NCBI GenBank assembly: GCA_003165195.1
Contig: PLSP01000114.1
Span: 1 to 41,791, forward strand
Reading direction: 5' to 3'
From: Candidatus Bathyarchaeota archaeon
Lineage (GTDB): Archaea > Thermoproteota > Bathyarchaeia > Bathyarchaeales > Bathycorpusculaceae
DNA length: 41,791 bases
Positions 4,724 through 29,633 of the stretch are shown here, piece by piece. Below the pieces are notes generated by a model that was not told the origin of the DNA, ran no database searches, and was given only the letters and a program-made list of their open reading frames with translations. Position 1 is the stretch's first letter. Each line of letters opens with the position of its first letter. Position numbers and translations under genes: made by a program.

Positions 4724-4854
4724 AAATATTCTGTTTTGCCAGTTGATTTAAGGCTTGTAGAAGAAATCTATTTAAGCTATATAGGATGAGGAATGAACAG
4801 CCCTCCTCAATCTCCCAGAAAATGGACCATATTTCAACTCCAAAAAATTTAGCC

Positions 4855-5026
4855 GAGGCATAAAGTAACGTCAATATACGCTCTTAAACGCCAAAACACG
4901 CAGGACCACGGGAAAAAACTTTTAGGCACGCTACAGCACGGGAAAACACGCTAAAACACGCAACCCCCCAACGCAGCAAACGCTAAACCAAGAAAGCAAC
5001 TCAAAACGCAAACAAACAAATTACGC
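4855..5026 (+). repeat. 172-bp dispersed repeat, copy A
   Basis: This noncoding stretch matches the reverse complement of 29148-29319 without gaps at about 147 of 172 positions by hand count. The central 72 bases (4893-4964) differ at one position only. Inside it, from about 4861 to 4960, nine of ten consecutive 10-base blocks carry ACG at the same offset (for example AAAACACGC and CAGCACGGG), so the array is phased at about one helical turn. Base composition is A- and C-rich on this strand. No open frame spans both copies. It sits between a small hypothetical gene and a methyltransferase gene. The function is unknown. Confidence 0.9.
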
Positions 5027-5088
5027 TGCAACACAAAACTAAAATTACGCCTAATCAGGCTTTACCTTCGCCATGAGGTTTCTGCGTT

Positions 5089-11389: not shown

Positions 11390-11520
11390 AATAATCAACC
11401 AGAACGCTCTGATTGCGCTATCTGGCTCTCTTGTTTTTCTTTACACTCAAACGGTAACTTTTAAAACATGGTGAAAGATTATGAACAGGTAACTTTCGTT
11501 TAGCAGAGGCAAAAGGCTTG

Positions 11521-12225
11521 ATGGCTCTAAAAAAGATGTGGAAAAACGACTACTTCAAAACAGTGATTGCCATCATCCTTATCGTGGCAATAGTTTTAGG
11601 TTTCTTCTTTGGCTCGCAATTAGTTCTCCACACCTCGTATCCGGCACTGGCGGTGATAAGCCCCAGCATGTACATAACTAGTAATGGCAATTATTACGTG
11701 GGTGAGGATTCGAGGACAGGAGCGACCCTCCCAACTGCACATAACCTTTGGATAAGCCTCTCTAATCCTTTTACGAGAACACTAGATGTAGGAGACATGG
11801 TAATCGTAGAGGGAATAACCCCTAAAGATTTGAACACAAATTACCCCAATAGCGACATCATTATATTCCACAGCCCAGAAAACGGCGAATTAATTGTTCA
11901 CCGAATAATCAAAGAAGAAACCATTAACGGCACAATGTACTTCCAAACCAAAGGCGACGGAAACGGCAATCCGTGGCCAGAGCAACCAACCTCAGGACAA
12001 GATCCGTGGGACTTTAGTAACCCACCGGGAGTACCTCAAAACCTCGTAGTTGGTAAAGTGATTATGCGGATTCCATGGTTTGGTTGGATAACAATGATTA
12101 TGCAGGAAAGCTCTTGGGGATTGCCGGTAGTTATTGCGCTTATAATGGTGCTTGTGATTGTGGAATTTGTGATTCCCATCCTGAGAGAGAAAACGCCAAA
12201 GCAAGAAAACCCGACGCAGACATAG
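11521..12225 (+). CDS. Signal peptidase I, archaeal/ER (Sec11-like) type
   Basis: A membrane-bound S26 peptidase that removes signal peptides from exported proteins, such as the large surface protein in this window. A transmembrane segment spans about residues 12-34. The catalytic Ser is in SPSM (Ser49), a VHR motif lies near residue 123, and KGDGN supplies the acidic residues near 145. His instead of Lys as general base is the archaeal/eukaryotic hallmark. A second hydrophobic segment (about 200-222) anchors the C-terminus. At 234 residues with an insertion after the Ser (about 55-85), it is somewhat longer than minimal archaeal enzymes. A TTG just upstream (11518) is an alternative start. 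Confidence 0.9.
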   Translation: MALKKMWKNDYFKTVIAIILIVAIVLGFFFGSQLVLHTSYPALAVISPSMYITSNGNYYVGEDSRTGATLPTAHNLWISLSNPFTRTLDVGDMVIVEGITPKDLNTNYPNSDIIIFHSPENGELIVHRIIKEETINGTMYFQTKGDGNGNPWPEQPTSGQDPWDFSNPPGVPQNLVVGKVIMRIPWFGWITMIMQESSWGLPVVIALIMVLVIVEFVIPILREKTPKQENPTQT

Positions 12226-17696: not shown

Positions 17697-18106
17697 GACA
17701 TGTCACGTTGAAATGTACTCATCGCAAGAGTCTATTAAGCCTTATCAAAACAGGCACCAAAATAATAGAAGGATGAACTACTTAACAGAAGGGAACGTGC
17801 AAATTGTACCTGCGCTAACAAAAAGTTAGAGACCAAAGCAAAAGCATTCAAAAGCACAGTTGCATGGACCTAGAATTCTTAGCGATATTATAGTTTGAGA
17901 AAAAGAGCCAAAAATCAGACCCCTCCCCTAGGTGAAACACTCAGTTTTGGGTTGCCATTTAAGTTTAGCGTTTGAATCGTTCGCAAGTTGAAACGGAAAA
18001 AGACATAGAAAGACACAAAAAGACAGAAAAGACGAAAAAAGGTGTTGCATTAACGTACGTAACAATCAAGTGAAAACGAAAATGGAAAATAAGTATAAGG
18101 GTTTGG
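17697..18106. other. Intergenic stretch of about 410 bases
   Basis: This separates larA from the 3' end of the L10 gene, both read on the minus strand. It contains no convincing gene, and in particular no L12 (P1) gene, which usually follows L10 in archaea. An 18-codon frame starting near 17774 (AGAAGG then ATG) is too short to support. A short run of AGACA units lies at 18000-18036. Nothing else stands out. Confidence 0.5.
18000..18036. repeat. Short AGACA-type repeat, about four units at roughly 10-base spacing
   Basis: AAGACATAGA, AAGACACAAA, AAGACAGAAA and AAGACGAAAA follow each other, with AGAC recurring at 18001, 18011, 18021 and 18030. It lies about 70 bases downstream of the L10 stop codon. 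It could be simple low-complexity DNA. The near 10-base period resembles, weakly, the phasing in the 172-bp repeat. Confidence 0.5.
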
Positions 18107-29125: not shown

Positions 29126-29147
29126 AAAACAAACCATAACTTCGGCG

Positions 29148-29319
29148 GCGTAATTTTGTTGTTTGCATTTTGGGTTGCTTTTTTGATTTAGCGTTTGGGG
29201 CGTTGGCAGGTTGCGTGTTTTGGCGTGTTTTCCCGTGCTGTAGCGTGCCTAAAAGTTTTTTCCCGTGGTCCTGCGTGTTTTAGCGTCCGCCTGCGTTTTT
29301 TAGCGTTTATTAATGCCTC
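29148..29319 (-). repeat. 172-bp dispersed repeat, copy B (inverted)
   Basis: The reverse complement of this segment aligns without gaps to 4855-5026 (about 147 of 172 identical by hand). Its 10-base phasing is even clearer than in copy A. From 29211 to 29310 CGT recurs at the fourth base of nine out of ten successive 10-base blocks, and the exception (AGT at 29254) is shared by both copies. It lies between two decayed genes, ending 24 bases before the AbrB-like relic. It is noncoding on both strands. Confidence 0.9.
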
Positions 29320-29343
29320 AGACAAAAGAGTAAATAGAGCACT

Positions 29344-29633
29344 ATGACGTTAACTGAAAAAGTCTCCTTCCCGCCCAACTACAAAGCAGCCACACCGTAC
29401 AAGTTCCCAAGCTTATCCGATGGCATTTCAAACTCGACAACTCTCAAGCCCTAAAAGTCGGCGTAAACTTCCTCGAACTGCATAAAAACTGGCAATTCTT
29501 CTACACAAAAATGCACAAAGACGGACGAATAACAATCCCAAAACTGATTCTTAGCCTCTTTGAAAACGAAAAAACAAACCTAACAGGCAACACTGTAGAA
29601 ATAACAATAGAACCAGCGGTAGGTCAAGTGTAA
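29344..29633 (+). pseudogene. AbrB/SpoVT-like DNA-binding protein with a one-base frameshift
   Basis: An ATG at 29344 opens MTLTEKVSFP, and the frame soon stops. Adding one base near 29371-29373 joins it to a frame that reads AQLQSSHTVQVPKLIRWHFK, LKVGVNFLEL, then KMHKDGRITIPKLIL and VEITIEPA, ending at 29633. The two half-motifs (VQVPKLIRW and GRITIPKLIL) are typical of AbrB-like swapped-hairpin domains used by transcription regulators and antitoxins. The repaired protein is about 96 residues. The fault may be decay or a sequence error. It lies next to repeat copy B. Confidence 0.7.

Follow-up and report, generated by a model that had tools for sequence, protein, structure and literature searches.

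The repeat at 4855-5026 of the window, which is the whole analysed stretch of 41,791 nt, is best explained as the promoter and leader of a solitary regulator gene, carrying a helically phased array of 10-nt direct repeats. The regulator is of the AbrB type, with a PhS018-like RIFT barrel; the array would be its putative autoregulatory site, and arrays without a gene would be relics of such loci. The probability of this reading is put at roughly 0.6. A leader with a TATA-like element, a 10-nt array, a start codon and a 92-residue gene follow one another in that order, the array accompanies the gene family across the order, and solo arrays are dispersed in two genomes.

Copies and anatomy of the repeat

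The segments 4855-5026 and 29148-29319 form an inverted pair, as the earlier note had claimed. They are 85% identical over 172 nt by BLAST (E 1.4e-51), with one mismatch in the central 72 or so bases, and ungapped extension within the window gives arms of 182 nt (4848-5029 and 29145-29326) at 84%. A genome-wide search places the pair among about 40 copies: in the draft genome (G000, 3.16 Mb) BLAST gives 28 matches for the 172-nt repeat, and a model of its 46-nt leader (R1) has 44 matches at E <= 0.05 and 39 at E <= 0.001. Applied to 31 further genomes of the genus, the same model detects 56 copies in a sister species (G017) and 0-5 in each of the others. An assembly duplication is rejected in view of these diverged copies in G000 and of those in another species. 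The suspected defined unit is confirmed and proves to be multicopy and intergenic, with 28-44 copies lying between genes. The clean borders described for it hold in part: conservation drops near TTTTTGTTGTTTGC and ATGCCTC (reverse complement GAGGCAT), yet in several pairs the similarity extends over 250-465 bp.

In the sense orientation, a T-rich stretch (TTTTTGTTGTTTGC) precedes the leader (GTTTTGGGTTGCTTTTTTGGTTTAGCGTTTGnnnCGTTTGCAGGTT) in each copy, and a run of direct 10-nt units and the terminal ATGCCTC come after it. The conserved leader is 46 nt long and is followed by 6-12 units of exactly 10 nt with a G(T/A) core. Over the 90 nt past the leader, identity is 0.543 at lag 10 and 0.527 at lag 20, against about 0.27 at unrelated lags. 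The units of the window flavour read GCGTGTTTTA GCGTGTTTTC CCGTGCCGTA and so on; other flavours share the leader but have unit words such as AAAAGTATnn, AAAGACAnnn and TTGACATnnn, among others. Copies of the same flavour differ by whole 10-nt units, and the order of the units is kept among copies. One genome holds several flavours, and the cognate gene is known for at least four of them.

The features of the three window copies are collected in the table. The earlier note mentions neither the periodicity of 10 nt nor the third copy nor the cognate gene, and its statement that neither copy has a conserved open frame is wrong for the copy at 29148: a frameshifted gene of the family begins 24 nt downstream and is 77-80% identical to an intact relative (G000:C84:2459-2734). 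No gene relic follows copy 1, which is a solo array. Copy 3 (17944-18041, plus strand), of the AAAGACAnnn flavour, lies between a lactate racemase-like gene and the gene for ribosomal protein L10.

Table. Positions of the repeat parts in the window and of the second motif at other loci
Feature	Position	Strand	Support
Copy 1 leader, sense GTTTTGAGTTGCTTTCTTGGTTTAGCGTTTG...GGTT	4962..5007	-	model R1, E 1.3e-9
Copy 1 array, 10-nt units GCGTGTTTTA GCGTGTTTTC CCGTGCTGTA ...	4862..4961	-	lag-10 identity 0.54, z 5.2
Copy 1 ATGCCTC, end of conserved unit (reverse complement GAGGCAT)	4855..4861	-	
Copy 2 leader	29168..29212	+	model R1, E 3.2e-12, best in genome
Copy 2 array, 10-nt units	29213..29312	+	lag-10 identity 0.50, lag-20 identity 0.59
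Copy 2 ATGCCTC border	29313..29319	+	
Copy 2 frameshifted AbrB/PhS018-like family gene, MTLTEKVSF... then AQLQSSHTVQVPKLIRWHF...EITIEPA in another frame	29344..29618	+	
Copy 3 leader	17944..17989	+	model R1, E 3.5e-10
Copy 3 array of a different flavour, 10-nt units AAAGACATAG AAAGACACAA AAAGACAG..	17990..18041	+	lag-10 identity 0.50, z 2.9
Second repeated motif, approximately TTGTAAATAGTAGRCCCCTATCCC	L004 1427-1456; L006; L011; L012; L019 2589; L022 2586		

At five loci of G017 (L184, L190, L177, L176 and L180), 2-4 leader-and-array modules stand in tandem, about 130-210 nt apart; their unit words often differ and an intact gene is mostly absent. The second repeated motif of the table lies 40-90 nt upstream of many leaders and also occurs alone elsewhere. 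The upstream motif TTGTAAATAGTAGRCCCCT is a separate repeat, and a coding frame across the leader is interrupted by stops. The array is not CRISPR-like: a CRISPR has identical repeats, about 25-40 nt long and separated by unique spacers, whereas the units here are 10 nt with a short core. The architecture of the array does not fit an attC-like site either.

The gene family and its upstream region

Eighteen of 23 family members match TIGR01439 (AbrB family; best 1.1e-8) and three of the 23 match PF04014 (MazE_antitoxin). The family profile matches PDB 2glw, PhS018 of Pyrococcus horikoshii, along its whole length (E 2.3e-7). In an AlphaFold model built from seven sequences (pLDDT 88), the same structure is the sole match below 0.001 in a fold search (TM 0.76, E 7.7e-5). 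By sequence and modelling, the 92-residue protein is an AbrB-type, PhS018-like RIFT barrel, for which DNA binding is predicted. The gene is solitary: its neighbours differ among all loci examined and no recurrent toxin partner is found, and a type II toxin-antitoxin operon is rejected for want of a conserved partner gene at these loci. At one locus (L121, G060), an AbiEii-type nucleotidyltransferase gene that may belong to a type IV toxin-antitoxin locus lies at 1837-2727, close to a family member.

The gene family was collected by protein alone; within the order it occurs in 24 of 151 genomes, and within the class in 30 of 257. For 32 family genes, the upstream region has an identity of 0.438 at lag 10, compared with 0.27-0.30 at other lags and with 0.266 at lag 10 before 221 control genes taken from the same stretches; lag 10 scores best in 27 of the 32. 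The consensus unit there is AA[A/C]G[T][C]nnnn, and in several genes a Shine-Dalgarno-like AAAGG stands in phase with the units. In about 17 of the 32 genes a TATA-like AAAGCTTAAAT precedes the start codon by 65-83 nt, although this element is degenerate in the window flavour. Because of this position, the array probably covers the transcription start and the 5' leader. One family member from beyond the order (L145) also has an array, with AGACnnnATT as its unit. The array is absent upstream of two family genes of one genus (L099 and L103) and hardly shows at L112; it is therefore not universal in the family.

In the orthologous pair G000 C22 and G017 C35, both genes are intact and GT is kept in each unit, the remainder having diverged. 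In another orthologous pair, L055 and L190, the single array of G000 corresponds to a tandem of three in G017.

The protomers of the protein would bind side by side, one to each 10-bp unit with its core of about AAMGTC, and the bound row, placed between promoter and start codon, would repress the protein's own gene. Differing array words would keep paralogues insulated from each other. The whole cassette would spread, partly by way of tailed viruses and other mobile DNA, and in G000 the gene would then usually decay or stay behind, leaving solo arrays such as 4855-5026.

Dispersal, settings and alternative readings

A gene or relic is found for 14 of the 70 copies in G000 and G017, against one match in the antisense control; the figure is rough both ways, as some of the weakest cases may be chance and shorter relics, among them those at L063, L027 and L048, were spotted by eye only. 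Copies 1 and 3 are missing from the orthologous sites in relatives with conserved gene order: the intergenic gap of copy 1 is 731 bp, as against 73 bp in G022, and that of copy 3 is about 410 bp, as against about 150 bp in G017. The idea that the inverted pair promotes inversion of the 24 kb between its copies finds no support in three genomes of the same genus (G017, G022 and G008), where the order of the genes between the copies is not inverted and the genes to either side are collinear, with their relative orientation unchanged. Within the window, stretches of 11453-12193 match two neighbouring places in the syntenic region of G017, which suggests, as far as sequence matches go, tandem paralogues.

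On an IMG/VR contig (IMGVR_UViG_3300033402_000046), a complete leader, array and gene precede the genes for terminase, portal, scaffold and capsid by about 3 kb. In G103 the cassette adjoins a terminase, and in G085 it is 3 nt from an integrase. Because of these three settings, the cassette is seen to travel on viral or integrative DNA, at least in these cases. Tailed-virus DNA and DNA linked to an integrase are therefore indicated as a vehicle for its spread. The IMG/VR contig (L255) encodes a PadR regulator together with terminase, portal, scaffold/cement and capsid proteins between 1119 and 10381, and is a probable tailed virus of Bathyarchaeia. The end of another viral contig (L254 1-130, IMGVR_UViG_3300033402_000645) encodes the C-terminal half of a family member. 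Plasmid carriage is rejected, one query protein having no match among 72,556 plasmids.

The dispersed copies could also be those of a MITE-like non-autonomous element, a 172-nt unit mobilised in trans, in which the likeness to a promoter array would reflect origin only and have no present regulatory role. This is possible, if distinctly less probable than an autoregulatory site. Some 40 intergenic copies with randomly oriented flanking genes (21/17/15/12), the orthologous sites without the element, the unrelated sequence right after ATGCCTC in at least three 172-nt copies (c12, c14 and c17) and the 56 of 70 copies with no detectable gene relic all suit such an element. However, the array is conserved upstream of intact genes in a number of the order's families, and in one case outside the order, and so has a role there. 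Terminal inverted repeats are lacking, since the ends TTTTTGTTGTTTGC... and ...ATTAATGCCTC are not inverted repeats of each other, and no transposase is found associated with the copies. No target duplications were recognised by eye, in comparisons with relatives that are about 75% identical and too distant for the borders of empty sites to be placed. Of the readings offered earlier, a protein-binding array and a miniature mobile element both survive.

The 10-nt step would also suit a repeated site on the mRNA leader, because the array is probably transcribed. The periodic leader might then bind the encoded protein, or ribosomes, and control translation, the last unit being the Shine-Dalgarno site. 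The location of the array between the TATA-like element and the start codon and the phase of its units with AAAGG in several genes agree with this, and in single-stranded RNA a strict step of 10.0 nt requires no helical geometry. Nevertheless, action on RNA is improbable: the protein belongs to a DNA-binding class, a row of DNA-bound protomers would need a step close to the helical pitch, and no RNA structure is seen. The structured RNA proposed earlier is likewise not borne out, as the repeat has no match in Rfam and folds no better than shuffled sequences (RNA z-scores of +1.0, -0.5 and +1.4). It is more unlikely still that the solo arrays are operators of a regulon, through which paralogous regulators would control the genes beside them. 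Several flavours in one genome, at least four with a cognate gene, speak for such a system, but the downstream neighbour is co-oriented in only 38 of 65 resolved cases, the other 27 copies facing an opposing gene, and relatives lack the two solo arrays of the window at those orthologous sites that were examined.

An autoregulatory array, in the preferred reading, would provide a candidate target and function for PhS018-like RIFT barrels, and would account for one class of the intergenic repeats scattered in Bathyarchaeia. The natural pairs of paralogous regulators and operators would allow studies of specificity, and with about 40 copies, usually without the gene, an unusual family of self-regulating mobile cassettes becomes testable. 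A bolder version, which is doubtful as a whole, is a virus-borne, self-spreading cassette, in which a monomeric RIFT-barrel protein forms a row on the 10-bp-step array of its own leader, with one protomer on each helical turn, words are specific to paralogues and insulated copies coexist; host solo arrays could then act as decoy operators or provide superinfection immunity against viruses with the same cassette. Searches of the open-licence literature for such arrays, for PhS018 and for Bathyarchaeia repeats gave no earlier description of an archaeal regulator family whose conserved upstream region is a strict 10-nt array.

Comparison with known systems

PhS018 (2glw) resembles the 92-residue protein in having two AbrB-like halves in one chain, and the match extends over the whole length in both profile and fold, at 22% identity. 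Neither a leader array nor a function is reported for PhS018 in the open-licence literature searched. AbrB/MazE-type autoregulators (TIGR01439, PF04014) likewise have AbrB-type half-motifs, and, as in the present family, the upstream region of the small regulator's own gene carries the candidate site. In contrast to them, the 92-residue protein has both halves fused in one chain and no toxin partner in the neighbourhoods examined. We know of no strict 10-bp operator array for AbrB itself. Cooperative binding by AbrB is known (PMC4022651).

Archaeal and bacterial MITEs, which have been reviewed (PMC10969869), are also short, multicopy, intergenic and non-coding derivatives of a longer unit. In contrast, neither terminal inverted repeats nor a parental transposase were found for the array unit, which is derived from the leader of a regulator. 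A mechanistic analogue of the proposed binding is BldC of Streptomyces, a small protein that binds rows of head-to-tail direct repeats, variable in number, with 9 bp per subunit (PMC5859096). BldC differs in its unrelated, MerR-like winged helix and in not being an element scattered over the genome. The centromere-like arrays of ParR proteins are clusters of 10-11-bp direct repeats beside the gene of a small DNA-binding protein. Although the cassette differs from them in its dispersed chromosomal copies and unrelated fold, and no ParM or ParA partner is seen beside its genes, it shares with them direct repeats of this length next to the gene of such a protein.
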